From Sanguinoderma infundibulare (Eukaryota > Basidiomycota > Agaricomycetes > Polyporales > Polyporaceae), in NCBI GenBank assembly GCA_032821775.1, contig JAVLRN010000006.1, positions 806,001 to 870,000 on the forward strand: a DNA stretch of 64,000 nucleotides. Reading direction: 5' to 3'. This document shows positions 44,044 to 59,879 of this stretch, one piece after another; the stretch's first letter is position 1; each line of letters starts with the position of its first letter. Position numbers and translations under genes: made by a program. The notes below the pieces were generated by a model that did not search any database, was not told the origin of the DNA, and saw only the letters and a program-made list of their open reading frames with translations.

Positions 44044-46227
44044 CGGTCTGTGAGGGAGCGGAATGTACCAGTTCACGAAGGTAATGTCTATGGTGAATCA
44101 CGTCACCCTACAGACATTTTTAAGGATGTTGAGAAATGGGGATCGTGGAAAAGGTTGATTGGCGAGCTCCCGAGTCGCTCTCGGACCGCACCACCTTCAA
44201 GGGATGAGCAGGTTCCCGGACCTAGCCATGCCCGATCACTTCCACAATCACGCGATAGATCCGCTGTACGCGGACCACCTGTTCCACTTCCACCTTCGAT
44301 GCGCACGCACAGGGAATCAACCCCTGTAATCTCGTCTAGTGGTAGCAACGACGATGATGAGGAAGAGGAGGACTTGGGCTCAGACCCAATACCTATACCT
44401 GCAGAACCCCTGCCTCAACCTCAGTCAGCTGCTCCTAGTCCAGATCGCTCAGACCCCGACAAAGATGATGATGACGATGATGACGAGGAAGAAGACGAAG
44501 ATGAATATGAATCTGAAGAAGAGTCATCAGGTCACTCGTCAGAAGAAGTCAAAGGTGTCTTGCGTGCCTCTAGAATTGATGTGGCAAAACTATGCCGGGA
44601 AGGGGGAGCTAGTCTCATCCAATACCTTATCGCAAAGGCGATTCCACCAGATGAGGGGGAGAAAGTCTCACCGCCCAATGTGCGCGAGTGGACTTACCGT
44701 GATATTGCCAGTCTACCAAAGGCTGAGCAAAAGGAGTGGTTTACCGCTTGCCGCGAAGAACTAGAGGCCCTTCGCAGGCGCGATGTTTATGACTTGGTCG
44801 ACCGTCCGAAAGGACGTAAGGTCGTGAAAAACCGCTGGGTATTCGACGTCAAAACTGACGGTCGTAAGAAAGCCAGACTTGTAGCAAAAGGCTTCTCCCA
44901 GGTCGAAGGCGAGGACTTCGACAAGATATTCTCTCCAGTTGTACGCTTTGAGACAGTCCGTCTCATCATGGCGCTTGCAGCACTCGAGGACTGGCACATC
45001 TCAGGACTTGATGTTCGCAGTGCTTACTTGTATGGCAAGCTGGATGAGGAAATCTACCTGGAGCAGCCAGAAGGATTTCGCATCCCTGGCTCTGAGCACA
45101 AAGTCTTCAGACTGAAGCATGCTCTATATGGGCTTAAGCAGGCAGGATTAGCATGGTGGCGCACCTTGTCTGAGTCCATGAAGTTGATGGGCTATAAACG
45201 GCTCACCAACGATGCAGGTTTATACATCTACAAATGTCACTCCGATGGCGCGATGGTAGTTGTAATCGTCTACGTTGACGATGCGCTTTTCTGTGGGCAC
45301 GACAAGAAGCTTGTAGCATTACTCAAAGCTCGCTTCATGAAGAAATGGGAATGTCGCGATTTAGGTGATGCGAAAGAGTTTCTGCGCATGCGCATTACTC
45401 GCATTGGCCGAAAGATCTTTTTAGATCAGCGTGCATACTTGGAGAAAGTACTGGACTGCTGCGGCATGACAAACGCACGACCGTCTTCAACTCCACTCCC
45501 TGCAGGTTACATACCTGCCCCCAACACAGGACAAGCTACACCGGAGCTTCGCTCCAGGTATCAGAAAGTTATCAGCTCTCTACTCTACCTCATGCTGGGT
45601 ACGAGGCCAGACATAGCTTTCGCTGTGACCAAATTGGCACAGTATGCCGCAAATCCGACCGAGGATCATCTCAGCAAGGCACTGCACATTTGCCGCTACC
45701 TCGTCGGTACCAAGAACTACGCCTTGGTTTACAACGGCGATTCTCAGCTCGGCTTAATTGCCGCAACCGATAGTGATTGGGCTTCTGACCCACACTCTCG
45801 ACGATTGCAAACCGGCTTCATGCTGAAGTTAGCGAACTGTGCATTCTCGTGGGTTTCACGTGCACAGAAGACCATTGCCCTCTCCTCCACTGAGGCTGAG
45901 TATATGGCAATGAGCGACTGTAGTCGTCAAGTAGTCTGGGTTCACAACTTGCTTGCTGAACTTGGCTACAACCTCGGTCGCGTACCACTATCTGGAGATA
46001 ACCAAGGCTCCATACACATCGGACAAAATGCTGTCACGGAAGCAAGGTCGAAGCACATCGACATCTGTTACCATTATGTTCGAGAGGTGTACGATCGAGG
46101 TATCACCGACATATTCTATGTCGAAGGGACTAATAATCCCGCTGATATTTTTACCAAGAACTTGGGCACCGTGAAGTTCCACCACTTTCGTCCCCATCTT
46201 GGCTTGCATTTCCCTAAGGCAGCTTAA
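44044..46227 (+). CDS. Copia reverse transcriptase and RNase H
   Basis: Same frame as the upstream part; first ATG at 44050. An acidic linker (44330-44540) precedes the RT. Its blocks are KNRWVFDVKTDGRKKARLVA, SPVVRFETVRLIMALAA, YGLKQAGLAWWRTL and the catalytic YVDD at 45271-45282. RNase H follows with ATDSDWASDPHSRRLQTG, IALSSTEAEYMAMSDCSRQ and EARSKHIDICYHYVRE. NNPADIFTKNLG ends the domain, and the stop is TAA 46225-46227. Intact, but without a start of its own unless the TGA is read through. Confidence 0.9.
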   Translation, partial: RSVRERNVPVHEGNVYGESRHPTDIFKDVEKWGSWKRLIGELPSRSRTAPPSRDEQVPGPSHARSLPQSRDRSAVRGPPVPLPPSMRTHRESTPVISSSGSNDDDEEEEDLGSDPIPIPAEPLPQPQSAAPSPDRSDPDKDDDDDDDEEEDEDEYESEEESSGHSSEEVKGVLRASRIDVAKLCREGGASLIQYLIAKAIPPDEGEKVSPPNVREWTYRDIASLPKAEQKEWFTACREELEALRRRDVYDLVDRPKGRKVVKNRWVFDVKTDGRKKARLVAKGFSQVEGEDFDKIFSPVVRFETVRLIMALAALEDWHISGLDVRSAYLYGKLDEEIYLEQPEGFRIPGSEHKVFRLKHALYGLKQAGLAWWRTLSESMKLMGYKRLTNDAGLYIYKCHSDGAMVVVIVYVDDALFCGHDKKLVALLKARFMKKWECRDLGDAKEFLRMRITRIGRKIFLDQRAYLEKVLDCCGMTNARPSSTPLPAGYIPAPNTGQATPELRSRYQKVISSLLYLMLGTRPDIAFAVTKLAQYAANPTEDHLSKALHICRYLVGTKNYALVYNGDSQLGLIAATDSDWASDPHSRRLQTGFMLKLANCAFSWVSRAQKTIALSSTEAEYMAMSDCSRQVVWVHNLLAELGYNLGRVPLSGDNQGSIHIGQNAVTEARSKHIDICYHYVREVYDRGITDIFYVEGTNNPADIFTKNLGTVKFHHFRPHLGLHFPKAA

Positions 46228-46265
46228 AGCGCCATATCCGCTTGCGTACTTGCGAGTGCGTACTT

Positions 46266-46277
46266 AGCGAGAGGGAG
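46266..46277 (+). other. Copia polypurine tract
   Basis: AGCGAGAGGGAG immediately precedes the 3' LTR, the expected primer for plus-strand DNA synthesis. Confidence 0.7.
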
Positions 46278-46638
46278 TGTTGAGCACGCATAGCCGTGCA
46301 CAGCATTGCATGGCATAGCTGCATACACAGATATCGGCACAGCCCGATATCTCATCTATCAGCACAGGCGCTGTATAGCCACCTCACACATGATCGTTTC
46401 ATGTGATGCACTGCCTACATACCAGTGTACTGGCAGTGCGTTCTGGTACTGTATAGTTCTTACTAATACAGTCTTCCATGTAGTATATATACGGCCCCCA
46501 TTGGCCCTAATAGCAACAGCTCTTCCTGCTCTTCTCCTCACTCATCTCTACAAGCCTCTCTCCCTCTCTAGCCAGGTAAGTATGTGTGACTACTGCGTGT
46601 AGTTGTCCCCCATAGTGGTATCCCCACTATGCTCAACA
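46278..46638 (+). repeat. Copia 3' LTR (361 bp)
   Basis: Differs from the 5' LTR at four positions, all G/A; three are CG in the 5' copy and CA in the 3' copy. Followed by the TACCC duplication. Confidence 0.95.
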
Positions 46639-46643
46639 TACCC

Positions 46644-47127
46644 CATGGACTATAGCACGGACAATTGCGCAGACAGTTGCAGAGACGGTTGCGGGGACAA
46701 TCGCGGGGACAATTGTGGGGATGGTCGCGCGGACAATTGCGGGAATGGTCACGCGGACAATTGTGGGAACGGTCGCGTGGACAATTGTGGGAACGGTCGC
46801 ATGGACGATCGCTTGGGCTTGAGCGCTACGGTGCAAGAGCCAGGCATGCCTGGGCCTTCCATTAACCCTGCCTTTCAGGAAGGAGGCTACGGTCTGCAAG
46901 TCGCAGCTCCCCTGGCACACAACCACCCCACGCTCAACGGCGGACACCAGGATGGAACCCATCACCTGTGAAATGGCATCCCTCACTACCGGTTCACAGG
47001 AGCATACATGTATGGTCCTTCTATCATACAGCACACTCCGAATGCTCCTCCCTACATGCCTCACAATATCACAGCAGGCTTGAGTGTACCATTAATATAT
47101 TATCCCACAATGCCTATCCAGCAGGGA
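46644..47127 (+). pseudogene. Repeat-rich unknown gene, part downstream of Copia
   Basis: Joined in frame to 40093, this reads MDYSTDNCADSCRDG and about a dozen D-N-C-G-N-G repeats, then RLGLSATVQEPGMPGPSINP to HHL and TGA (46968-46970). The frame stays protein-like after the stop (NGIPHYRFTGAYMYGPSII, YMPHNITAGL, YYPTMPIQQ) up to the inverted-repeat element at 47128, so the TGA is probably a CGA-to-TGA mutation. A matching Pro/Met-rich C-terminal piece resumes at 58730. Confidence 0.55.
46650..46810 (+). repeat. 12-bp Asn/Asp-Gly minisatellite, locus 2
   Basis: About 13 imperfect units of GGTCGCGCGGACAATTGCGG character (12-bp step), encoding DNCGNGRADNCG. It is the C-terminal repeat region of the same gene as locus 1, separated from it by the Copia element. 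Confidence 0.75.
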
Positions 47128-47727
47128 TGTCGGTCCGTGAAATATTTGTAGAACGTTAGTTATAGTTATACTCAAATTTTTTAGCCCAATGACTATCAAT
47201 GGCCCCCCAAATATTTCGTGCTCCGCCCCGACATATTTCGACGTGTCATCCGGGTGTCACTTCAAATATTTCGGCTGTACTTACAAATATTTGTCTCATC
47301 CTGTGGATGTCATCGTCGATGTAGTAGATACTCCCCCAGGGGACTCTTCTAAATATTCTCAAATATTTCGAGATATTTCGTCCGCAGTCAGGAAGCATGA
47401 GGCGTGCCCCTAGCTGATGTGTCCCCCAGATATTTCGAAATATTTCAAGCAAGTGGGAGGGACGTCTCCCCTCACAGCAGAGCCCCAAATATTTCAATGC
47501 CAGCCCAAATATTTGATGTGCATGTCATCAACGCCAGTCTCGCAGATAAATCACTCTTTCACCAAATATTCTGGCAGCCCCAAATATTTGGACAGCCTCA
47601 AGTTAGCGCTGTGGAGAACGTCCCTCCCTAGGTCGCTTTCACATACTTCTAAATATACTGAAAATATTTCAACCCCGGCCCGTGGGGCATATCTACCAAA
47701 TATTCAGTGGCACGAACAAATATATTG
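47128..47727 (+). repeat. Left inverted repeat (600 bp) with AAATATTT array
   Basis: About 16 AATATT-core sites, mostly CAAATATTTCG or CAAATATTTG, spaced irregularly at 20-60 bp. It aligns to the reverse complement of 58196-58729 along its length, for example TTAGTTATAGTTATACTCAAA, ATGACTATCAATGGCCCCCC and GTAGATACTCCCCCA (each quoted in part). Confidence 0.8.
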
Positions 47728-47779
47728 CGTACACGCTGACAGCGATGCGGCTTTGGACGCAGTGCGCTTCCACCATTGG

Positions 47780-48300
47780 ACCTCCCGCCAGCCATGAACT
47801 CCACGACGAACTGTGCGATCGCCCGCTCGCCCACCTCCGTCAGCGCCCGCACGCCCCACCGCCACTCGTACGTCTGTAGCTGGTCGTCGCCTGCGGGGGC
47901 CTGCATACCACGCGCACATTTCACGCCGCGGTGCTCCATCGGACTGTCAGGATCGAGGATGCGTGGGGACCGCTCAATGGACTGCCTGATGTCCTCGTAC
48001 AGAGCCTGCTTGCTCAGGGTACTGTGCTTGTGGAAGTGGGGGTAGGTCACATTGCGAACATGGCTCAGCTTTGTGGGGATCGTCGACATGGGCAGGGACC
48101 GCTTCCGTTCGGTTTTAAGGGACACAGAGAAGTCGTAATGCACTTTGAGCGATGTCAAAGCATCAAGGGTGAAACTGTTCAACCTCCGCTCAGCCATGAA
48201 GCCGCCAACAGTTCCATGGGCCTTGGCAACGTTCTCGAGCTTCATCTTGAGCGACGCGAGGCTGGCCATGTCCGGAGTCGAGGGGACGCCAGGGACGCAG
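47780..48300 (-). pseudogene. MAGE/Nse3-like C-terminal fragment fused to unidentified coding sequence
   Basis: The minus-strand frame has TYEWRWGVRALTEVGERAIA with QFVVEFMAGG at 47780-47870. This is the end of a MAGE-homology domain as in Nse3, the Smc5/6-complex subunit. Upstream in the same open frame is protein-like sequence I do not recognise (LENVAKAHGTVGGFMAERRL, TKLSHVRNVTYPHFHKHS, EDIRQSIERSPRILDPDSP). It may come from another gene joined here. The frame runs on into the left inverted repeat, so the end is cut. Confidence 0.4.
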
Positions 48301-48319
48301 GACGTGGACGAGGGACCTT

Positions 48320-49105
48320 GGCGAAGACGACCTCGTAGTTCAAGTTGCCATTGTTGTCCCAAACCTCGCGACCAGCGACGTTATATCGCAGCGCAAAAAA
48401 CATGGTCTTCTCGTCGATCCGCGCAAGCATGTCGCTGAGGCGGATGGTGAATGCAAACCGATCGAAGACACTGCCAGGTATCGAGTCGAGATACTTCGCG
48501 GTGACCTCGCTCGTCGTCTGCCAGTAGTCGACCGTGAAGTGGACCGCGAGCCACTTTTCGAAGGCAATGTTGCGCACACAGATGTGGCCGTTGAGGGAAA
48601 GGTCGTCTTCGGAAAGGGTGAGCTCCTCGAGGGCAACGTCGGCATCCACACGTGGCGTGGCGGGCATGTTGGTCATGGTCATGGTGAGCATCTTCTCTTG
48701 CTCCAGAACGTTCTTCCGGCCAAAGATGAGACGTGGGAAGTTGCTTTCCGTGCCACTCGTGTCTGTCGGGGAGCCCTTGCTAGAGATGGCCAGGGGCTTC
48801 TGTTCGGCCAGGAAGAGCTTGACGTGCTCCAAGCGGGCGTCGAAGTGGACCGACTTCATCGGAGTGCTCGGCTTGCTCTTGGTCGAAGGCATGCTAGTCA
48901 CGACAGACAGATCGCCACGGACAGCTGGCCGCCGCGACTTCAACGAAGACTCGAGAGGCTCACCAGACTTCTTCCGCGCCGTCTTCGTAGAGTCGAAATG
49001 TGCTGCGGCAGTGCGGACGTGGTGCTTCTCGATGTAGCCCTGGCAGGAAAGGATGAAAGAGGAGTAGGGGATGATAAGGCCCGCCTTTCTTCGGGCCTTG
49101 CGCAA
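48320..49105 (-). pseudogene. CBM21-domain fragment (PP1 glycogen-targeting subunit, Gac1-like)
   Basis: The minus-strand frame contains KSVHFDARLEHVKLF, where SVHF fits the RVxF-type PP1-binding motif. Then come SNFPRLIFGRKN and LEELTLSEDDLSLNGHICVR, with NIAFEKWLAVHFTVDYWQTT. VFDRFAFTIRLSDML and MFFALRYNVAGREVWDNNG close the domain near 48330. The pattern of conserved Trp, the V-x-V-R-N start and the F-A-L-R-Y-xxxG-xx-WDNN end define CBM21, which tethers protein phosphatase 1 to glycogen. The long flanking regions of Gac1-type proteins are missing, and the frame ends at 48242 in unrelated sequence. Confidence 0.65.
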
Positions 49106-49109
49106 AGTG

Positions 49110-49858
49110 ACTCACCGAAAAAGCGAGAGATCTCAAGTCATATTCAATGCACTGTGGCATCCCGGGAGCCTGCCAGTGGTGTCTTGGCCTTCGAGTTAGG
49201 GTGTAATCTGAAGCTGAGGCAGGACGCTGATTCTAACAGAGCAGTAGGCAAACAAGGCATAGGGGAACGGATAGGTGTAGGCGATCATGACGGTGAGGAC
49301 GAAAAATGTGGGCGCCTATGGGATGCTGCCAGCTTGAAGGTGACCCATAACGCATAACGTAACGCTATGTCACAGAATGCGACCGTAATTCCAGCTTCAT
49401 ACGGCTCCGGCTCCCAATGCAGTCCCTACCAGAAACCTAACGTATCGTACACGGGCGGTTTCACCCCGCTATGACGCACCTTAGCCACCGGAGACGGCCA
49501 GGATCCAACATTCCGAGGTGTTGTTCAAGAAGATTTTTAGGATACTAGAGGGTGGCGTAGGTGGTTTGTACCGCCTTGCGATTCATATTTGGAGGTTCGT
49601 TCCCCACAGATCCCCCCCTCCAACCTGTTTGACGTCGCTAACAAGCTCACAGTCTATCTCGCCGCCTTCCTGGCTCTTCTCACCCCCAACGTCTCTTCCT
49701 TGTCCAAACCGCTCAGCTCCGGAGCCGTTCTCGCCGTCTGACTGCCTGCAGCCGTTGCTAGTGCCATAGTCATTCCTAGGTGGCGACTCACCGCTCTCGC
49801 ATTTGCCGTTATCGCTGATTAGTATGTTTTCCCCTCGCGACCCCAACCGTGGTCACTA
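49110..49858. other. No supportable gene inside the Pack-like element
   Basis: Short frames only; a Ser/Pro-rich plus-strand stretch (49518-49769) has no recognisable domain. Confidence 0.35.
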
Positions 49859-50165
49859 ATACGACCCGGACAAGTTCGACGAGCGCATGCACAAGGGCGA
49901 CAAGAAGGCGGTCGAGCTGAACCGGCTCGGGACCCAGTGGGAAGGTAACTTCTCCGAGGGCGTGTTTCGCACATGGGAAGAGCTCGCGTTCATCCGGAGG
50001 CACTGGCACGGACCACTCGTTCTCAAGGGCATCCTTAGCGTGCAGGTACGTGGACCACGCACTCTTTCCAGAATCACACCTGACCTCCCGGCTGTGCAGT
50101 GCACATACAGGATGCTGAGCGCGCCTGGATCGACGAGAATGGAAACCCTGGTGCAGGTTTTATCA
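49859..50165 (+). pseudogene. FMN-dependent alpha-hydroxy-acid dehydrogenase fragment
   Basis: YDPDKFDERMHKGDKKAVEL, NRLGTQWEGNFSEGVF and RTWEELAFIRRHWHGPLVLK with GILSVQ, then a GTACGT donor (50047), an intron, and DAERAWIDENGNPGAGF. TW..L..IR..W.GPL.LKGI...DA is the FMN-binding core of cytochrome b2/lactate-oxidase-type enzymes. The catalytic His block (SNHGGRQ) and everything after it are missing, as is the N-terminal half. The preserved intron shows capture from genomic DNA. Confidence 0.7.
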
Positions 50166-50855
50166 GCTCAGAGGTTGTCGTGCTGCGTGCAGGGCCTCAT
50201 GAAGAGCTATGAATCATGTGGGCAACCAATTGCTACACTTTTCACGCCCTGTTCTCCCATTGTGTGCTAGCACTCGCAGGGGCGACTATGTGTCGTTGGC
50301 AGTGGTTGCGAACTCTAAGATTCTAACCACTCGCTGCCCTCTGCCACAGTTTGGACAGCCTTTGGCCCTTGTCTCTCGCCACCGCTATACAACACACCAC
50401 AGCATAGAACATCATCCTAGGCGACACCTTCGACACACCTGTATCCAACAACCATGGTATGTTCTAGCCACTCGACAAAGGAATTTGAACGTACAGGCTA
50501 ACTGTCGCATACCAGAGCGACTCCGAGAGCGAATTCTGGGGGGGGGGGGGCAATTCAGACTCTATCTCGTGAGCTCAACAGTTCCTCAGGGACACCAGCA
50601 ATGCATCTCCCATTCAGAGTTACCTGGTGGCGCTTTTCGCCTCCTCTGCATGTCTGACGGAGTCAGTCTCTTTCCGGAGCTTATCCTGTAACCTCTGTTT
50701 GATCAACTGCTGCTTCTTCGCCTACTCATTCCGAACATTCCAACGCGACTCAGGCCAATGAGCATGGGCACCCCCAGACCAAATCAAAGATACCCATCAG
50801 TCAACCCAACAAAAATGCAAGGCATGACGGTCAGCGTGCGAAGGAAACAGGTGGA
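50166..50855. other. No gene seen; G12 homopolymer
   Basis: Unassigned sequence with a run of about 12 G (near 50538-50550). No coding signal could be supported. Confidence 0.35.
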
Positions 50856-51060
50856 CGATAGGAGATGCACCGTGTCGCTCGTGTTCCGCTCCTTGTCCTC
50901 GTTCTTTGCCTTCGTTAGCGTGCTCAGCATCATCCCGAAGGCCGTCTTGCCCCGCTTGTGCTCCCACGGCTCGACCGCCTTGTCGAGCTGCGGCCGCTTC
51001 TTCGTCTTCTCCCCCTCGATGGGCGGCGCAGTCACGGCCTCGGGCGTGGCTTGCATTGGT
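50856..51060 (-). pseudogene. Pinin/SDK/MemA-domain fragment
   Basis: The minus-strand frame reads EGEKTKKRPQLDKAVEPWEH and KRGKTAFGMMLSTLTKAKNE with DKERNTSDT. KRGKxxFGxxLxTLxKxKxED..R is the pinin/SDK/MemA core, a splicing-associated nuclear protein. Only this short core is present; the reading stops making sense on both sides. Confidence 0.5.
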
Positions 51061-51149
51061 CTGTACAGCAGAAAGGAGGGCGTTGTGTGTGAGGCAAGAA
51101 CCCATAGAAGGGAAGAGCATGCAACCGAGATACACACTCGTCGGTGATC

Positions 51150-53095
51150 ATTTTGAGTGGGGTCGGGGCTGGGGTTAGGAAGAGTGAGAGGGAGTGTGGG
51201 ATGGAGAGGGTAAGAAGACGGTGACCAACCATGTTTCTTACCAGCGACTTACCCGATTGAAACACCGACTATTGTTCATTAACAGAGAGCTTTGAGTCTG
51301 AATAAACAAGATTTGCTTATTGCTCGGGCATCAAGCGCACATCGCCCTAACTTGCTCTCGCCCATCTGCCTAACTTGCTCTCGCCCACTGTCCTGCTCAG
51401 GCAAAATTCACCCCATGTCGCCGTGCGGAGCGTCCAGTTAGACTCGAAGATATCATTAAGATGGCTTAACTGAGCGACCATGGACCCCTTTGACTTGCGC
51501 TCGACTTGTGCTCGTTCGGCGACTAGACGCGTACGTCTGTTCCTCATCTGCCCGTCCGGACGTCCTGAACGACCTCCAGCTCCCAACAGTCCATCAAAAA
51601 GATCGTGGGATATACTTTGAAGTACTTCTCGTCATGTGGAGAAGGCTTGTGGGACTGTATCATCGAGGAGTGTCAGAAGGTGCATCTCGTCGACTGTTCC
51701 TGACCTCAAAGTGCGATGTTGCGCCATGCTCCACAGCCAAATGGTGGTGTCGTGTACTCCACAACCTGGATTTGCTTCGAGCTATGTGCTGCAGGTATCT
51801 CTCCCTCCGGACAGTTTCTGTAGCTTCCTGCCCCGGCTTTTACCTCCTAGAAGTCAATTTCGACCTCCCTCATGGCTCTGCGAAATAACTTGAGTCCTTT
51901 GCAAACTCGTCCTGCTTGTGCCCGAAGCTGCTCAAATACTGACCATGTTCTGCAGGGTACGCTGAACAGCCACATCAACGATGATTGTGCAGTTATCCTG
52001 CGCTATCACGAGCCCCAGACAATTGTTCGCTGCGAAAGGTCAGCCTCTGCAGGACTAAAATCGTGTTAAGCTAGGTACATGTGAGTTCTGACACTTGCTA
52101 TGGATTTTGGATGTGTTCATACATTATAATTGTATATCGGCATACATATACGCTTTGCACCCTGTTGTCTTACGCCTATCGTTCACAGTGTAATTTTAGT
52201 AGTTCGAGTAGGGTCTGTAGGGATAGCACAATTTCTACAGCAGGCGGCCTTGTCGTTGAACAATCAAGCCATTCCCTCGTCCGCCTCCCTCGCGCATCTC
52301 CTGACCTCCTCAATTCGCTCGTCCAACAGCCACATGGCGTATGCCCTATGGAACCTCTTGACCCACTCTGGGACTGTCTTCTGGGCCCCGCCTTCCTCTT
52401 CCGCCCAGTCATAGTCGTGCACGCACGCGTGGCGGACCTCAACCATGCGCTCTGCGTCCACTTGGGGCCCAACACCAGACTCGTGTCGACCCCCAGATAT
52501 CAGCCGCCACGGGTATCCCCACGCGGCGATCCACCGGAAGAAAGAGACTAACTCGTCTGACAGCCCCCAGGCCACCAGCAGTGAGACACCGGGAGCAGGG
52601 GCTCGGAGGATGAGGAAGACGCTGTGGAGAAGCTTCTGGCCCTCGTGGAAGCTGTGCTCGCCGTAGTCGAGCTGTTCTGAGCATGTCTTTGTGCCCATGA
52701 TGGGCCCCGTCACTCGGAAGAGCTTGTTCTAGAGGAATACGCACGCCCAGCCCTCTTCGAAGCTTTGACCCCGGTTCTTTGCATTGATCAGCCTGCGGGC
52801 AGGGACGCGAGTAGACGTTGAGGTAGGGCGTGTACTGGGCAGATGGATCGGAGGGCGTTCAGAGCACGGGCGTTGTCGATGTTTCTGGGGAGCAAGGAGG
52901 ATATTGAGTTTGGAGGCAGGTGATTGTGTGGTATGCGAAGTATATTGGGGGAACTATAACTATTGCGCTGACTTGCGCTAGAGCGGCGCCGGCGGTGCAG
53001 TGGAGGCTGCGCAGCAGCCATCTCACCGCTCTCTTCTATCAATTCTACCCTGCACTTTATGCCTCTCGGACGGGCCGGACAATCGTTGGCGCAAT
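51150..53095. other. Unidentified captured sequence
   Basis: On the plus strand about 51590-51700 (SIKKIVGYTLKYFSSCGEGL) and on the minus strand 52264-52713 (SEQLDYGEHSFHEGQKLLHS, VSFFRWIAAWGYPW) look like pieces of real proteins. I do not recognise the families and cannot define ends. Confidence 0.3.
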
Positions 53096-53099
53096 GAAC

Positions 53100-53462
53100 A
53101 GACCTCTGCCTTCTATTCTGCAAACGCCGGGGTTTGTGCACTATGGCTTGGCTTGGTCACCGTGACCGTTCCACAACACCAGACTTGCACTTGCAGAGTC
53201 TTCCGCAAATTGCGGACTGGTCGACAACGAGAGGCTGCATGACGTTGTTGGGCTTGGACCAGGACCTGGCGGGTTGCCTCAACCCAGGCTTAACAAGTTG
53301 TGAGTGCATTTCCTTGGTGGATAATGGGGTCGCGGCTTGAGCGGTCCAGTTACGACACGCAGGATAGCTTGTACGCTGTAGCTTGGTCCGAGATCCATGA
53401 AAACCAGCTCGTAACCGCTTCTGGGGATGGGTTCCTGAAGCTCTGGGACATTATGGTCAAGG
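53100..53462 (+). pseudogene. PEX7 (PTS2 receptor) N-terminal fragment
   Basis: LQTPGFVHYGLAWSP (53118-53162), a frame change, FHNTRLALAESSANCGLVDN and VVGLGPGPGG. After a probable intron come YDTQDSLYAVAWSEIHENQ and LVTASGDGFLKLWDIMVK (53350-53460). These are the first WD40 blades of Pex7, the cytosolic receptor that brings PTS2 proteins to peroxisomes. The remaining blades are absent and at least one base change breaks the frame. Confidence 0.75.
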
Positions 53463-53479
53463 TATTTTCGGCGTCCCGT

Positions 53480-54470
53480 GTCCCACACCAGCACCTCCCC
53501 TGGGGATCGGAATGACACCCCTCGCCCCTCGTCCTCGCGTGCGCGAATCGACGGGATGCGCATCGTCGATGTCCATCGGCGCACCTCCACCCGCGTCGTC
53601 CGCACCTGCGCCAACACAAGTGTTTCCCGCACTTCCCCTTCATGGGCGACCTTGGCCCTGTCCATGCCCACCGCGGCCCTGGAGTGCGCCGCGCTTCGCC
53701 CTGCGCCCGAACTGGATCGAGGTGGGGACGAGGGAGAGGGAGTCGAGCGCGTTCGCGAGGCCGTTGACGTCGCCAGCCGCTTTCGCCGCCACTCGCTTCT
53801 CCTTGCCCTTGCCTTTCCGCGGTTTCCGTTCTTGTGGCGCGCCGTTTGCGGTGGTCGCGTGCACGGATGGCCGCTCGATCTGTATCTTCTCAAACAGGAT
53901 CTGGTCTTCGTCACCTTCCTCCTCGTCGTCCCCAGCTGGGTTATCTTCTGGTACGGCTCCCGTGCCATTAGTGTCTGTGTGCGTTTCCGTTTCTGTGTTT
54001 TCCGCGTCGTCCATCGCCTCTCCATCATCCCCCTCCTCTTCGTCCTCCTCCGCGTCTTCACCGCCTGCTGCAGCGCCGTTTTCGGGGGCCTTTCAGGGCT
54101 TGGGAAGCAAACTCGCACCCTCGCCCCACTTCTTCAGGAGACCCCCGACGCCCTTGTTCGTGACAGCGAAAAAGTATTCTTTGGGAAACCCGTATCAGGT
54201 GCATTCTGTGCATCTTCGGCGTGAAGAAGTTGCACGCGCATGTCGCTAGTTGACATGCAAACTAGCGAAGATAACGTTAGATACAGACGGCAGTGCTGGA
54301 AGCGAGAGGTGGTACGCACAATCTTCTCCCCACGCTCCTTGCGCACTGCAGCGAGAGGGTCATGGCACTCTGTCTGGTGCTGCGGCAGCACCACACACAC
54401 GCCCAGAATCAGCACAACATGATCCAAGCGGAACTGCGATCGACGAGTTCTGGCACGACCCCATCGCACG
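53480..54470 (-). pseudogene. Unidentified nuclear-type protein fragment
   Basis: The minus strand reads EYFFAVTNKGVGGLLKKWGE (about 54150), then an acidic stretch (EDAEEDEEEGDDGEA), DQILFEKIQIERPS, a Lys-rich segment (ERKPRKGKGKEKRV), DVNGLANALDSLSLVPTSIQ and a Gly/Arg-rich region with in-frame stops (53640, near 54092). Composition suggests a nucleolar or RNA-binding protein, but I do not recognise it. Confidence 0.35.
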
Positions 54471-54759
54471 CAGAGAGTGAAGAAGCCGACGGCAACACTG
54501 AAAGCTTCAATTCGCCACTCACCAGTTCAAGCAACCGTGCGTCGGGAAAGACGCACCCGCATCCCTTCTGCTCGCATACATGCGCGTGGTACATCGCATA
54601 GTGCTTCGTCATCACAAATATGTTACCCCAGCCCGCCTTGGTGCTCAACCTTGGCGTACAGTGGACTCCTGACTGCCTCCGCTCGCTAACGACCCTCCGA
54701 GCACACCCCACTTGTGTCTACCAAGTCCTCTTCTCAGTCTCCCACCTGTTGTACTCGTC

Positions 54760-55348
54760 CGGAAGTCCTCAGGTGTATAGCACCTGGTTGATCCTGCTAG
54801 TTCTACCGAGTACGGAGCCGGTATAAGCCTCGATGAGGCAATCTCCCTGTACGCCGGATGTGCCTATGAGCTCGCGTTGGGGCACCATGGTGCACTTGAT
54901 GGTGGGGGAGACATCGGAGGCGAAGTCGGCAGAGAAGAGCGGCACGTGCGAGGTCCATGTGTCTGCGACAGGACGCCATTGGACAAGAAGGACGCGAGTG
55001 TTGGCCGAGGCGGAGAGACGGTTTGCGAGGGTGCACCTCTAATGCCGATGCTGGTGTCGACAGAACAAAGTGACAATGGGACTCACCGCATATAAACAAG
55101 CCACTGAGACTCGGGAACTGTGCGGACGACGTTGCGCTCGCGCTCATGTTCGCCGTGGAAGACAAGTCCCCTGTCGCGCTGGCATTGGTAGAGGAGGTAG
55201 GGGTGAACGAAAGGCTGATTGAGATGGAAGGAATGCTGCCTGTACCAGAGGCCGACGGGGACTCGGAGGGGGCCGTGAGGGATGCGGCTGCAGAGGCATG
55301 GGAGGCGAACGCGAGCACGACGAGGTGCAGAGGCAGAAAAGTGAACAA
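54760..55348 (-). pseudogene. Ser/Thr-rich secreted protein fragment
   Basis: The start at 55348 gives a signal peptide (MFTFLPLHLVVLAFASHASA) and a Ser/Thr/Ala-rich segment to about 55090. A second block, one frame off (ANTRVLLVQWRPVADTWTSH, IKCTMVPQRELIGTSGVQGD), runs from about 55030 to 54800. A 48-nt intron (GTGAGT...ATTAG) between them does not by itself fix the frame, so a frameshift is likely. I do not recognise the family. Confidence 0.4.
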
Positions 55349-55379
55349 ACTGAATGCGAGATATTCAGAGGGTTAGGAC

Positions 55380-56365
55380 TCTGGAGTGGTCGTGCTGGGG
55401 TGCTTTTTAGGCAAGGTCCAGGTCACTGTCAGGTGCAACGCTGCCACTGATGGCTCCAAGAGTGGTGTTGCGGGATGCGGAACTGGAGCGTTTGCAGAAG
55501 GTCGCCTTCGCCGACACCCCTGCTTTGCAGCAGTTACCGGGTAGTATTCATCGGAATGAACCTGTATTGTTGCAATTCATGAGCTCTGTGATCTGATGCA
55601 CCTGTATCTGTGGCGAAATGGTATGGTTCATGCAGACGAACGTCGTAGGGTTCCACCGCGAATGATGCAACCCGTACCCGCTACCTCCATCAACTGTATT
55701 ACGTTGGTCAAAAGTTGATACACAGTCAGCAGAATGGAGACATACCCTCTCGCATCAGCCCAGAAGAACACTACCACCGTTGATGTTTCCCTAGGGAACC
55801 TGGCAGCGTGATCCCCTTGTACAAGTACTTCATTAGGGTAACCTGTCCATCCGGCCATAATGACTTCACGATCTGGTGCCGACTTGTCCCGGAACCGAAT
55901 CCTCAACCGAAAGGAGGCTGTCGACGGGACCAAATCCGATCAAGCGTTGGCCCCAGGAGGATATGTGTTAGAGTTCCATGATTTATCGCTAAAGGCTCGC
56001 CGCTATGTACTTACCGAGTACCCGCAGTTGGAATCTGCTGGAGAGATCCGACATTAGCTTCAATTTGAAAATAAACTAAGGAAGCGAGTGGTATAATGAG
56101 GCGACTAACCATGATTGCCAGGTACACCATTGCAGCGAACCAGATCCCTGACTCCGACGAGAATACAAGAACATACATTATGATCTACTTTCGCTAGAGT
56201 ACACTGTACTATGTATATACGAGCAGGCAGAAGAACACATTGAATACAGCGGTACTAGAACCCTATGCACATAGACGGGTTCTGGATGGGACCTGATTAA
56301 TGATTAGTGACGAACAAACACATGGGTTGCACGTAACCGACACAGGACCGAGGCGAGGTCGCAGC
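55380..56365. other. Unidentified; short minus-strand coding-like blocks
   Basis: The minus strand 55628-55933 (LRIRFRDKSAPDREVIMAGW) and about 56120-56190 (SSESGIWFAAMVYLAIM) look like exon pieces of one or two proteins. No family could be named. Confidence 0.3.
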
Positions 56366-56369
56366 GGAT

Positions 56370-57240
56370 CAGCCCAGCACGGCAGCGGAGTCCAAGCATC
56401 TAAAGAAAGAGGTATGGCAGCACTCACTAGAGCCGTCCCAAAACCCGACGCCATACACCATCTCGCGGGGATGGAACGAAAGACTGCTCATCCTTGGCGT
56501 GAAAGGAGCCATCGTGTCACGCGCAGGTGGAACCGAAAGGTTGGTGGTGAGAGAACCAAGGCCTCTCCTTGACTGCAGTGACTGCACATCTGTGCGTTGC
56601 GAACGCGAGTTGGCCGTGGTAAGGGACGACGTACTGCACCGCAACTACATCAGGAAAAAGAAGAGGTACGGGCAGGATGTGACGTACGCTGCAAAGACTT
56701 CGGTTTGCTCATGCACGTCAAATGCGGACAGGCCGTGGGGAAATAGGTCCCATGTCTGCAGAGGAGCGTCGCCGCCACGAATGTCCCAAAGCTTGACCTC
56801 GCCATCCAAGCTGTAAAGGAGGTGGATCAATAATTGGTGACGACGAACGCCACGTATGGTGACCCTCGTACCTGCCGGAGAGGAACTGTCCCGCAAGCGT
56901 CGGATGCTATTTGACGTTCTGCACCCAAAACGTATGCTGGTGATAAGTTCGCAGAGCAGCATCGTCTTCCTCAAGCCGCCGGTCAAATATCCTGACAGTA
57001 CCATCAGCGAAGCTGGCTAGGAACACCGACGACGATCCACCGTCAGACGCAATCGCTGTCGCGGGGCGGCTGTCAGCGTTTGTGTCGAGATCCTAGAATC
57101 AGATTAATGAGCACGATAACCAGATCGTTACTAAACGATCGACGCATACCATCACCTGGCTCTCTGTGTGCGCATGTCCATTCTCAAGAACCAATGTCAG
57201 GTCCAGGATGCTGAGATTAAAAGACAAGGGACTCACGAAG
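56370..57240 (-). pseudogene. Raptor/KOG1 C-terminal WD40 fragment
   Basis: In minus-strand order: VLENGHAHTESQVM, DLDTNADSRPATAIASDGGS and SFADGTVRIFDRRLEED (57000-57220), YQHTFWVQNVK then a stop, SLDGEVKLWDIRGGDAPLQ with TWDLFPHGLSAFDVHEQTEV (56695-56810), and RSQRTDVQSLQ followed by FTPRMSSLSFHPREMVYGVG (56420-56600). This is the WD40 end of raptor, the TORC1 scaffold, as I recall it from basidiomycetes. Stops and lost joins show decay; the N-terminal caspase-like and HEAT regions are absent. Confidence 0.6.
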
Positions 57241-57296
57241 ATTCTACCTCAGTACGCCGCTGTCCTCACTGCTCGAAGTCTTAGACGCTCGATTCG

Positions 57297-58195
57297 GTGG
57301 CGCCTCAGCCGATGTGCCACCGGATCGAGCGTCTAAGACTTCGGCCTCTCCTCCAACCTCCTCCCACTCACCACGTCGCATCTCTTCTCTCCTGTGCATC
57401 TCTCCTCTCGAGCTCATCCCTCGTCACCACGCCCGAGGCATCCCAGCTCGGCCCCCCGGCGTCCCCACCTTGTCCGACAAGCGCTCGCGCCACGAACTCG
57501 ACCAGGCCGTCCCCAACGACGACCGCTTCGTCCACAACCCCGATGCCGGCGAGAGCGGCTAGGGTGATGATGATGACGAGGGCAAGCCAAAGATGAACAA
57601 CAAGGCCGGCCAGTCGCCGTACTTGAGAAAGCCATGAAGGGACGCCAGCCTGCTGACCTTATGCTCCGCTGTGAGTCCACACTTGGTCAAGCACACCGGA
57701 CACGTTCGTTAACCTTGACAGGCCCACAGGTACAATCCTCTACGCTGACAGTCAGTTGGAGCCCTTCCCTTCTGCCCCCTACCTACTCGCCTAACCTTCG
57801 ACCGCCTTGCCTTTCGCGTTTACGTCCCCAGAAAACATCAAGATCATTTCGGGGCAGTTCAGGAAGGTCGAACTGTGTTCCAAGCACCATCTGAACGTAA
57901 GTTTGTCCATCAGCGGGCAGCCGCGTGATCTCCGCAAAATTGATTCACGGATCCCCAACCTCATGCCCACCATCCTGGTGCGAAAGGAAACCATCCTTGT
58001 ACGTAGCCCCCTTCCGTCTCCTACATTCCCTCTAACCAACCCCCTGTCCTTCTCCCACCTTCCCCCCAACAAGGTTAATATCCTCCATCCATGCACTTGT
58101 CAAGGCCGACACCGTCGTCCTCGCTCAGAAGTGTCAGCATGTCGATGCACACACCGGGGAGGTTCACTCCCGGCCCTGTGAGTTTAGAGGATGTT
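57297..58195 (+). pseudogene. MRS2-type magnesium channel N-terminal fragment
   Basis: After a Ser/Pro-rich presequence-like region with stops (57297-57700), exons read ENIKIISGQFRKVELCSKHH (57829-57895). RDLRKIDSRIPNLMPTILVR with KETIL (57926-57998) and IHALVKADTVVLAQ (58088-58130) follow. DLRkiDsrxPnlxPTIlVRkxxILvnxxHIrAlvKad is the N-terminal alpha/beta domain of fungal Mrs2, the mitochondrial inner-membrane Mg2+ channel. The GMN motif and transmembrane helices are absent. The last exon runs straight into the right inverted repeat. Confidence 0.6.
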
Positions 58196-58729
58196 CAATA
58201 TATTTGTTGTTTGCGCTGCATATGTTGTATGTGGCGGATGGGGGTGAAATATTTGAGTATATTGGGAAATATGCCCCTCTTCACGGCGCTGCGTCCAAGT
58301 ATTTGACGTAGGCTGAATATTTAGTGGACAGTTGTTTATTGGGGAGACTTGGCGTGGATCACATGTCCCTGAAATATTTGGGCAGACATGAAATACTTGG
58401 AGATATTTGGAGGGGACGTCCCTCCCGCTTGATCGAAATATTTGGAGATATTCGGGGGACACTGGCATGGCTTGTCTTTCCTGATGGCCGGCGAAATATT
58501 TCAGAATATTTGGGGGAGTCCCTTGGGGGAGTATCTACTCTGACGACATCCACAGGACAAGGTAAATATTTGTAAGTACAGCCAAAATATTTGAAGTGAC
58601 ACCTGGATGACACATCGAAATATGTCGGGGGGGAGCCCAAAATATTTGGGGGGCCATTGATAGTCATTGGGCTAAAAAATTTGAGTATAACTATAACTAA
58701 CGTTCCATCAAATATTTCACGGACCGACA
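58196..58729 (-). repeat. Right inverted repeat (534 bp) with AAATATTT array
   Basis: Reverse-complement partner of 47128-47727, diverged and somewhat shorter, with the same AAATATTT sites. Its inner edge abuts the MRS2 fragment without a spacer. Confidence 0.8.
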
Positions 58730-58877
58730 CAGGTGTATCCAGGCCCACGTGCAGCCCCCGGCAGGAACACAACTCGGCCAACCTCTGCCACCACCGCCCA
58801 TGCCACCCTCGACACCCATCCATCCATATATGCAACTACCACCCGCTGCTAGCCATCCATCTGTACCTGAGACGTAG
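58730..58877 (+). pseudogene. Probable 3' end of the repeat-rich unknown gene
   Basis: It reads CIQAHVQPPAGTQLGQPLPP, then PPMPPSTPIHPYMQLPPAAS and HPSVPET with a TAG at 58875-58877. The Pro/Met/Tyr-rich style matches the sequence cut at 47127, so the two are probably one exon separated by the 11.6-kb insertion. The exact frame across the junction depends on the duplication length and is unproven. Confidence 0.4.
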
Positions 58878-59426
58878 TATTCATGTTGTTATTTGTGTCT
58901 CCAAATGTGGTGATACTTTGGTCAATTGTCATGCGAATGTTTCATGTCTTGCTGTAGCACTGAATGATGCAAACTCTTTTGAAGCTGATTAATTGTAGCT
59001 TTTGTTGTTCAGAGAAATAACCCTCAATGAATGTGTGTCATCCATCATCAGAAAATTCACCGCAATAACAACAGCTATATCGACATCGCAAGCTCGGGCT
59101 AACGGTTGTGCGGACAGTGTTGTGGACCCACGCAAGGAACTAATTCTGGACAGGCTATTTTTCGGGCGTGCGGATGGCCGCGCTAACAGATGGTCGCGCT
59201 AACGGTCATGCGGACGGTCGTGCTAACGGTCGTGCTAACGGTCGTGCGGACGGTCGCGCTAACGGTCGTGCGGACGGTCGCGCTAACGGTCGTGCGGACA
59301 GTGTCGGAGGAAGCAATTCTGGACAGACTATTTTTGGGCTACAGGGAGAGCGAACAACTGGGTGGGAGGTCTCTTTGACTAGTTTCACACGGCACTGGAA
59401 GGAGTCTTAGAGAGGCGTCAGGGTCC
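58878..59426 (+). repeat. 12-bp Asn/Asp-Gly minisatellite, locus 3, and flank
   Basis: 58878-59090 is AT-rich, 3'-UTR-like sequence. From 59098 to 59300 are units of GGTCGTGCGGAC and GGTCGCGCTAAC, encoding NGRADGRANGRADG. The 21-23 bp motif AATTCTGGACAG(G/A)CTATTTTT flanks the array at about 59140 and 59315. It is the same unit type as loci 1 and 2 and may be part of another copy of that gene family. Confidence 0.65.
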
Positions 59427-59879
59427 TGCCTGGGGTGGACGTCCGTCGCGATCGAGGCGGCGGACATCGTGCTCATGCGCTCGGACCTGCTCGACGTCGT
59501 CGCGGCGCTGCACCTCTCGCGCGCCATCTTTGGCACCATCCGCCGGAACCTCGTCTGGGCGTGCCTCTACAACGTGCTCGGCATCCCGCTCGCGATGGGC
59601 CTCTTTTTGCCGTGGGGCTTCAACCTGCCGCCGATGACGGCCGCCGCGGCGATGGCGTTCTCGTCCGTGAGCGTCGTCACGAGCTCGCTGCTGCTCAGGT
59701 GGTGGGCGCGCCCGGCGGCGAGCGTGATGCCGGGCGAGGACGTAAGGGGGAAGACGGTGCTGGACAGCGCGAGGAACGTGCTGGGCGACGCGTGGGACGG
59801 CGTGAGGGGCTTGGTGCGTGGACGGAGAGACTTGGCTGGGTACAGCCAGCTGCCTGTGGAAATGACAGAGACGGTGTGA
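59427..59879 (+). pseudogene. Copper-transporting P-type ATPase (CCC2/ATP7-like) C-terminal fragment
   Basis: TSVAIEAADIVLMRSDLLD, VVAALHLSRAIFGTIRRNL, VWACLYNVLGIPLAMGLFLP and MAFSSVSVVTSSLLLRWW, then a cytosolic tail to the TGA at 59877-59879. GTDVAIEAADIVLM and the last two membrane helices (NxxxxxxYNxxGIP, MAxSSxSVVxxSLxL) are signatures of P1B copper pumps of the Golgi. The phosphorylation site, CPC motif and metal-binding domains are missing; the join at about 59427 is abrupt. The frame shown is intact and GC-rich. Confidence 0.7.

Follow-up and report, generated by a model that had tools for sequence, protein, structure and literature searches.

A Pack-type DNA transposon, apparently of the KDZ (Kyakuja-like) family, carries nested fragments of the host genome in the polypore Sanguinoderma infundibulare

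Introduction

How does a single 11.6-kb stretch of a fungal genome come to hold truncated pieces of many host loci, in both orientations, between two inverted repeats? The question is raised by an element, here named E1, in a 64,000-bp stretch (hereafter the window) of the Sanguinoderma infundibulare assembly GCA_032821775.1, which comprises 48.9 Mb in 87 contigs. The window is C6:806001-870000, on contig JAVLRN010000006.1, and contigs are numbered with the prefix C throughout. The initial annotation had described E1 as a Pack-type element reminiscent of plant Pack-MULEs, devoid of a transposase and inferred to move as one unit. Here we report that E1 is very probably a non-autonomous Pack-type DNA transposon of the KDZ (Kyakuja-like) family that was loaded, probably, by faulty break repair. 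The analysis covers one assembly and its sequence only.

Results

Boundaries and insertion site of E1

E1 occupies window positions 47122-58735 (11,614 bp) and could be bounded to the base. It had been placed at 47128-58729; the element stands, but its true ends (CAGGGA...CAGGTG) lie 6 bp outside those first reported and are flanked by a previously unreported, perfect 7-bp target-site duplication (TSD), TATCCAG, at 47115-47121 on the left and 58736-58742 on the right. The left end with its terminal inverted repeat (TIR) covers 47122-47786 on the forward strand, starts with CAGGGATGTCGGTCCG and contains 10 copies of the motif AAATATTT in its first 600 bp, and its stretch 47731-47786 matches the inner repeat of a relative, E4, described below. 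The right end with its TIR (58123-58735, reverse strand) ends with CCGACACAGGTG and contains 8 copies of the motif in its last 600 bp. The two repeats align over 164 nt at 93% and 48 nt at 90% in one comparison, and over 468 aligned bp at 79% in a second, as expected from the earlier description of inverted repeats enclosing the cargo.

The flanks of E1 belong to a giant KDZ element, which runs from C6:777514, outside the window, to window position 59437 and has an 8-bp duplication, GACGTCCG, on both sides. Its right end (59425-59445, forward strand) reads CCTGCCTGGGGTG up to 59437, followed by GACGTCCG at 59438-59445, and this copy spans 87.9 kb, E1 included. Among matches to the last 0.4-0.5 kb of the left flank of E1 (40 of 91 candidates scored), all four other giant-element copies examined, on C18, C2, C10 and C12, were uninterrupted and carried one TATCCAG. 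The single TATCCAG at these homologous empty sites indicates that E1 inserted exactly at the ends named above, within a KDZ element that was there before it. An insertion into an ordinary host gene, suggested by a 94-aa open frame across the joined site, was considered and dropped because the flank lies within the giant element; a search with this frame as query found no homologue.

Part of a high-copy repeat lies at window 45000-46639 and ends about 480 bp to the left of E1. At least 27 further places, one of them inside the related element E5, cover most of its 1.64 kb at 88-98%; judged by eye from the reading frames in E5, it looks like a long terminal repeat (LTR) retrotransposon.

Source loci and map of the cargo

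The interior of E1 consists largely of sequence with a counterpart elsewhere in the genome: 9,087 of its 10,336 bases (88%) could be aligned to other loci, or 9,519 when a block shared with the related element E3 is included. The prediction of captured fragments was thereby borne out, and the fragments could be aligned to sources as the annotation had proposed. The source loci given here are the best of 39 scored among 143 candidates, and other or closer parents may exist. About ten dispersed loci contributed, in both orientations, namely C5, C4, C10/C7, a C1 tandem repeat, C2, C8, C6, C16/C6, C1 and C11. Strands below are given with respect to the source contig, and divergence is given as the Kimura two-parameter (K2P) distance.

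Fragment A (47933-49026, minus; K2P 0.082) comes from C5:3354199-3355291, in a gene for which the name CBM21 held (E 5.9e-29). The parent is an open frame of 754 aa whose relatives in other polypores are similarly long (best listed: Ganoderma, 67% and 67%; Dichomitus, 66%), and E1 keeps about 364 of its codons. Next come fragment B (49093-49852, minus; C4:903001-903766; K2P 0.099) and fragment C (49860-50154, minus; repeated locus at C10:19669 and on C7; K2P 0.114). The open reading frame (ORF) over fragment C is weakly FMN_dh-like (E 3.2e-5, just under the Pfam cut-off), which partly agrees with the assigned name FMN-dehydrogenase; a PDB search with this ORF gave 0 matches. Fragment D (50322-50633, plus; K2P 0.095) matches a C1 unit that recurs at intervals of about 17.66 kb. 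Fragment E (50634-51979, minus; C2:381839>380514; K2P 0.087), with an overlap of about 156 bp with a CTK3-domain ORF, and fragment E' (51972-52036, minus; C2:383432>383368) lead up to fragment F1 (52037-53081, plus; C8:2674179-2675306), which lies inside the C2 fragment and has a K2P of 0.102 over 52037-52979, its last 90 bp matching at 70%.

The PEX7 fragment (53062-53465, plus; C6:2539028-2539420), whose name was supported by PDB 3w15 (E 2.3e-17), is split by fragment G (53467-54604, minus; C16:227938-229067, with a duplicate at C6:2990216; K2P 0.088) and resumes at 54629-54735 (plus; C6:2539616-2539724). A second copy of the PEX7 fragment is in the C8 locus; the parent was read first as C8 and then as C6, and both loci hold the fragment. 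Fragment F3 (54733-55037, plus; K2P 0.099) matches a GMC oxidoreductase-domain ORF at C8:2680050-2680354, and also C8:2662167, and is followed by fragment E'' (55038-55482, minus; K2P 0.100), where the C2 piece resumes. Fragment H (55873-57175, minus; C1:4171364>4169936; K2P 0.067 and 0.043) derives from a WD40-type gene, identified by weak Pfam matches below the cut-off; it had been called raptor. Block X (57176-57607, no strand assigned) includes a dispersed repeat and is common to E3, in the same order beside a C11 piece, and fragment I (57612-58122, minus; C11:375390>374818; K2P 0.073) is the C11 piece of E1, E3 carrying C11:375223-375836.

The remaining gene names of the initial annotation fared less well, with a sub-threshold match for pinin (E 0.014) and no support for MAGE/Nse3, MRS2 or a secreted protein in the 20 ORFs scanned by Pfam, out of 98 stop-to-stop ORFs of at least 60 aa in E1. 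No transposase family was matched in the same 20 ORFs, and no place of the genome-wide KDZ list falls inside E1, in line with the reported absence of a transposase. Gene fragments had also been said to run directly into both repeats. On the right this is the case, the C11 piece ending at 58122 with repeat-like sequence next, whereas on the left 146 unmapped bases separate repeat-like sequence from the CBM21 piece, though a 243-aa open frame crosses that edge.

Few gap columns separate several pieces from their parents (A, 3; C, 0; F3, 0; H, 4 and 4; others more, up to 190 in F2), and E3 holds a contiguous 6.1-kb genomic stretch; on both counts the cargo was most likely captured from DNA and not from spliced RNA. 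Two open frames, at 53282-54133 (minus, 284 codons) and 54806-55372 (minus, 189 codons), cross junctions of pieces from different loci and are possible chimeric reading frames. Matches to cargo pieces also recur at fixed spacing, of about 17.66 kb on C1:4.25-4.34 Mb and about 18.06-18.09 kb on C5:3.57-3.59 Mb, C5:3.78-3.86 Mb and C23. These are long tandem arrays of large units, which on C5/C23 include CBM21-like sequence (two units compared).

Nesting, inner junctions and divergence

The pieces are not simply lined up. The C2 piece breaks off at 52036 and continues from 55038, lacking only about 10-14 parental bases and showing no duplication, and the 3.0-kb block that splits it has the order C8, PEX7, (C16), PEX7, C8/GMC. 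Inside that block the C16 piece in turn interrupts the PEX7 piece, where 195 parental bases are missing. Several junctions are blunt or show an overlap of a few bases: D and E abut, as do the C2 piece and F1 (C2b/F1), and the two parts of H (H1/H2) share AGG with 131 parental bases missing. Other pieces are separated by short unmapped stretches (66, 167, 390 bp and so on), and no target duplication was seen at the inner junctions inspected. These features would fit repair by end joining or with template switching. At C8:2674179-2681200 lies another mosaic, in which no family ends were detected and which shares its order with part of E1; it comprises an SNF2 piece (95% to C9), a PEX7 piece (C6) and a copy of a GMC oxidoreductase gene (97% to C8:2661560).

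Comparison with the chosen parents gave K2P values of 0.08-0.11 for pieces A to G and the C2 pieces, 0.073 for I and 0.067/0.043 for H, which is probably the youngest piece. In 12 fragment alignments, parent-to-element C>T changes were found at 196 of 1,551 CpG sites versus 130 of 3,309 other C/G sites; in the reverse direction, the counts were 52 of 1,225 CpG sites versus 88 of 3,436 others. The plain reading is that CpG sites were lost through methylation and deamination of E1 after most of the captures. Changes in piece A number 24/21/39 at first, second and third codon positions; this mild excess at the third position would be expected if most of them arose in an unconstrained copy.

A family of five elements with shared ends

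A whole-genome search with the left repeat, in which all 11 first-look candidates were scored, revealed ten ends that form five inverted pairs spanning 11.6 to 48.5 kb, while more diverged ends were possibly missed. Besides E1 these are E2 (C5:53854-87559, reverse orientation), E3 (C18:174461-222921), E4 (C13:583615-597045) and E5 (C5:3656296-3679573). No solo end was found in this search, and one further partial repeat copy is internal to E2. The complete pairing of the ends upholds the Pack-type interpretation, which single scattered repeats would contradict, and other family members and empty sites, which the annotation had proposed to look for, were found (five elements with E1; four of four examined sites empty). 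All five elements share their outermost 6 bp, which read CAGGGA at one end and CAGGTG at the opposite end (reversed in E2), and have perfect 7-bp duplications, all different (TATCCAG, ACGGCAC, AATCCTT, GCGGATT and CGCAAGT). The motif AAATATTT occurs in 8-13 copies per terminal 600 bp at all ten ends, and in 0-6 copies in the entire interiors, suggesting that the arrays are putative transposase-binding sites.

The relatives were mapped in part (19.0 of 33.7 kb in E2, 10 of 48.5 kb in E3, 8.4 of 13.4 kb in E4 and 10 of 23.3 kb in E5). Mosaic interiors were also found in the searched parts of E3, E4 and E5, and the cargo matches in the part of E2 searched were few and short. The match lists for E3 and E5 omit the query's own place, and a locus missing from them therefore says little. 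A contiguous 6.1-kb stretch of C12 (C12:797474-803562) lies in E3, and its main interruption is a single other repeat. By mapped coordinates, many neighbouring pieces of E4 and E5 lie within 0-9 bp of each other, and unmapped sequence separates some. An internal repeat piece in E5, where the right repeat is split and flanking direct repeats of 356 bp match at 96.9%, is best explained by an LTR-type insertion. Palindromic elements of about 613 bp and about 670 bp, each present in many copies of up to 96-97% identity, are inserted in captured pieces of E4 and E5.

That the ends of E1 inserted as a unit follows from the TSD and the empty sites. For the cargo, the evidence comes from E3. In both E1 and E3 a C11-derived piece (168 bp of C11 in common) lies beside the repeat and is followed inward by block X (82%), and the two elements are on different contigs with different TSDs. 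Of the places scored for block X (40 of 57 candidates), E1 and E3 alone matched it from end to end; the match to E3 emerged only with block X as the sole query. Since the C11 piece and block X are common to two elements at different sites, this part of the cargo must have travelled, and the arrangement supports the derivation of E1 and E3 from a common ancestor that would already have been loaded. The earlier proposal of movement as one unit thus holds for the ends and, within the cargo, for these two pieces.

A candidate transposase in E2

Both a CxC2 domain (E 2.6e-15) and a KDZ domain (E 1.3e-19) were matched in E2 above the Pfam cut-off, together with a TET/JBP match below threshold (E 6.7e-4). 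The genome-wide list contains 87 KDZ matches, some of which are pieces of one gene, and none of them falls inside E4 or E5. The KDZ places in E3 sit in a separate nested element (C18:186295-220886, 34.6 kb) with the ends CACCTAAGGCAGG...CCTGGGGTG and an 8-bp duplication of its own, GACGGTAT, which carries KDZ, Ulp1-type protease and TET/JBP domains. The giant element around E1 is its C6 copy. Because the 2.7 kb compared are 100% identical at C18, C12, C10 and C2, this 34.6-kb element looks recently active. The KDZ gene in E3 was therefore ruled out as the transposase of E3 itself, and the notion that E2 and E3 are both autonomous was dropped. Between E2 and the nested element there is no nucleotide match of at least 60 bp outside the end repeats, which shows that the KDZ gene of E2 is not a copy of that element.

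Discussion

Which known group does the family resemble? A Helitron was ruled out by the presence of a TSD and TIRs. MULEs make TSDs of about 9 bp, and the length of 7 bp in all five elements ruled them out as well; in place of the MULE-like affiliation first suggested, the superfamily looks KDZ/Kyakuja-like. Kyakuja elements of the KDZ superfamily have 7-bp TSDs and 5'-CA..TG-3' termini (Kojima 2025, PMC12730594). The five elements are like Kyakuja of Agaricomycotina in their 7-bp TSDs (5/5), in their basidiomycete host and in their CA..TG ends, CAGGGA...CAGGTG in four of five elements and in reverse orientation in E2, and E2 further resembles them through its KDZ transposase domain, next to which lies a CxC2 domain (PMC12730594). 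They differ in that four of the five have no KDZ place of their own and in that their cargo consists of many genomic fragments. Zisupton, another KDZ group, has a published TSD of 8 bp (PMC12730594), compared with 7 bp in all five elements here.

We propose the following course of events. A transposase supplied by E2, or by a relative not seen here, would bind the AAATATTT arrays and mobilise E1 in trans through a cut-and-paste mechanism. The gap left by excision or breakage would be repaired from both sides, with synthesis switching to unrelated genomic templates or ends being joined to filler DNA, and a new piece would land inside the element, sometimes within an earlier piece. The outcome expected of such repair is near-blunt or few-base-overlap junctions, small deletions, no inner duplication and nested cargo. 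The copy would have been silenced later, with CpG sites of the cargo lost relative to the parents.

Several observations weigh against this account or narrow it. Excision, gap repair and movement in trans are steps that we infer and did not observe, and E1 is single copy, its mobility being demonstrated for the C11 and X part of the cargo only. This shared cargo adjoins opposite termini in E1 and E3, which requires an inversion between the repeats. The C8 source is a mosaic in its own right and includes a PEX7 piece, so that F1, PEX7 and F3 may have been captured ready-made as one piece, and the independent nesting would then be shallower. The sources of C (C10/C7), D (the C1 array) and G (C16/C6) are repeated in the genome, and hence the cargo does not derive entirely from single host genes. 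The CpG bias is absent in H (10/184 versus 11/191), B and C. As for the transposase, one of the two Pfam matches of the E2 KDZ gene spans a stop, possibly an intron, and no second copy of the E2 KDZ gene was among the matches listed (two of three candidates scored; the query's own place was also unlisted). The family assignment is based on the TSD, the ends and the E2 domain, and not on a tree. Long inverted repeats are present in all five elements, whereas two Laccaria Kyakuja families were described without TIRs (PMC12730594), a trait not known to be required of the group, and for this reason we use the label Kyakuja-like rather than Kyakuja.

The last points bear on a reading that we consider unlikely, in which the five elements are members of a different superfamily (hAT7, MULE or a new one) and E2 acquired its KDZ gene through an independent insertion, as E3 did. 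E3 shows that the 34.6-kb KDZ element can nest in a family member, a listing that omits the E2 gene's own place cannot establish that gene as unique, rust hAT7 elements also make 7-bp TSDs, and Kyakuja was described without TIRs (PMC12730594). The combination of CA..TG ends with 7 bp is, however, that of Kyakuja; the E2 gene is not a copy of the nested element in E3, no other place among the 87 KDZ matches has its match range and score, and no other transposase family was found when five E2 ORFs were compared with Pfam, most E2 ORFs lying outside that scan. Local hopping, the published plant Pack-TYPE model (PMC8903248), in which two neighbouring insertions are mobilised together with the DNA between them, is improbable here. 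It could produce the contiguous C12 stretch of E3, and a partial second repeat copy lies inside E2; yet the cargo of E1 and E4 is a series of numerous short pieces, drawn from different contigs, oriented both ways and often abutting, the genome search with the left repeat found no internal family end in E1, E3 or E4, and the internal repeat piece of E5 has its LTR-type explanation. The proposal that host processes made the cluster (segmental duplication, break-repair debris or assembly error) and that it was enclosed later, or only apparently, deserves very little credence. Although the C8:2674-2681 kb mosaic without detected family ends indicates that this genome builds mosaics elsewhere, and large tandem arrays of cargo-matching units exist, the proposal is largely refuted by the perfect 7-bp TSD and the four empty sites, which place the insertion edges exactly at the ends of E1, and by the cargo that E1 and E3 have in common at different sites.

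E1 can be compared with other gene-capturing transposons. Like plant Pack-TYPE elements and Pack-MULEs, E1 is apparently non-autonomous and has several truncated pieces of host DNA between inverted repeats; it differs in host kingdom, in superfamily, in TSD length and in cargo nested inside cargo, the word "nested" being absent from PMC8903248. Captured host-locus fragments between TIRs with a TSD are found in E1, some from repeated sources, and mobilisation of cargo together with the ends is seen for the C11 piece and block X. In Pyrenophora tritici-repentis, transduplication by hAT and Tc1/Mariner elements was stated to be the first fungal example (PMC3538342). Those elements are likewise fungal DNA transposons with cellular-type coding sequence between inverted repeats, but they belong to an ascomycete and to other superfamilies, and their many near-identical copies hold one or two coding regions, whereas E1 has cargo of many loci and a single copy (PMC3538342). 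The Helitrons of Pleurotus ostreatus are also basidiomycete transposons with captured genes, but they are of the rolling-circle type and make no TSD, and no intact Helitron showed evidence of P. ostreatus gene fragments (PMC4289320). The main text of PMC12730594 contains 0 occurrences of "gene fragment", and we found no report of host-fragment capture by Kyakuja/KDZ elements in the open-licence literature, judged from titles and abstract starts among the matches listed. Pack-type capture has already been published for plants and, in other superfamilies, for an ascomycete.

These results point to a little-studied group of fungal transposons that is apparently able to capture and mobilise fragments of host genes. 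Pack-type capture has mainly been studied in plants; here it is met in another kingdom and probably in a different transposase superfamily, and a single genome supplies a candidate source of the transposase together with several mosaics, the empty sites and the loci from which cargo came. An order of capture can be read from the nested pieces, and with it models of gap repair and of joint mobilisation of neighbours become testable by sequence alone. Quite tentatively, the KDZ transposons of polypores might be general collectors of host DNA, whose broken copies would be mended from random genomic templates, patch within patch; TET/JBP, protease and kinase genes might have entered KDZ and other fungal transposons in this way too, a transfer described only as passive in PMC12730594. 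The case may also offer a concrete route by which fungal transposons acquire useful genes, such as those of TET/JBP dioxygenases.

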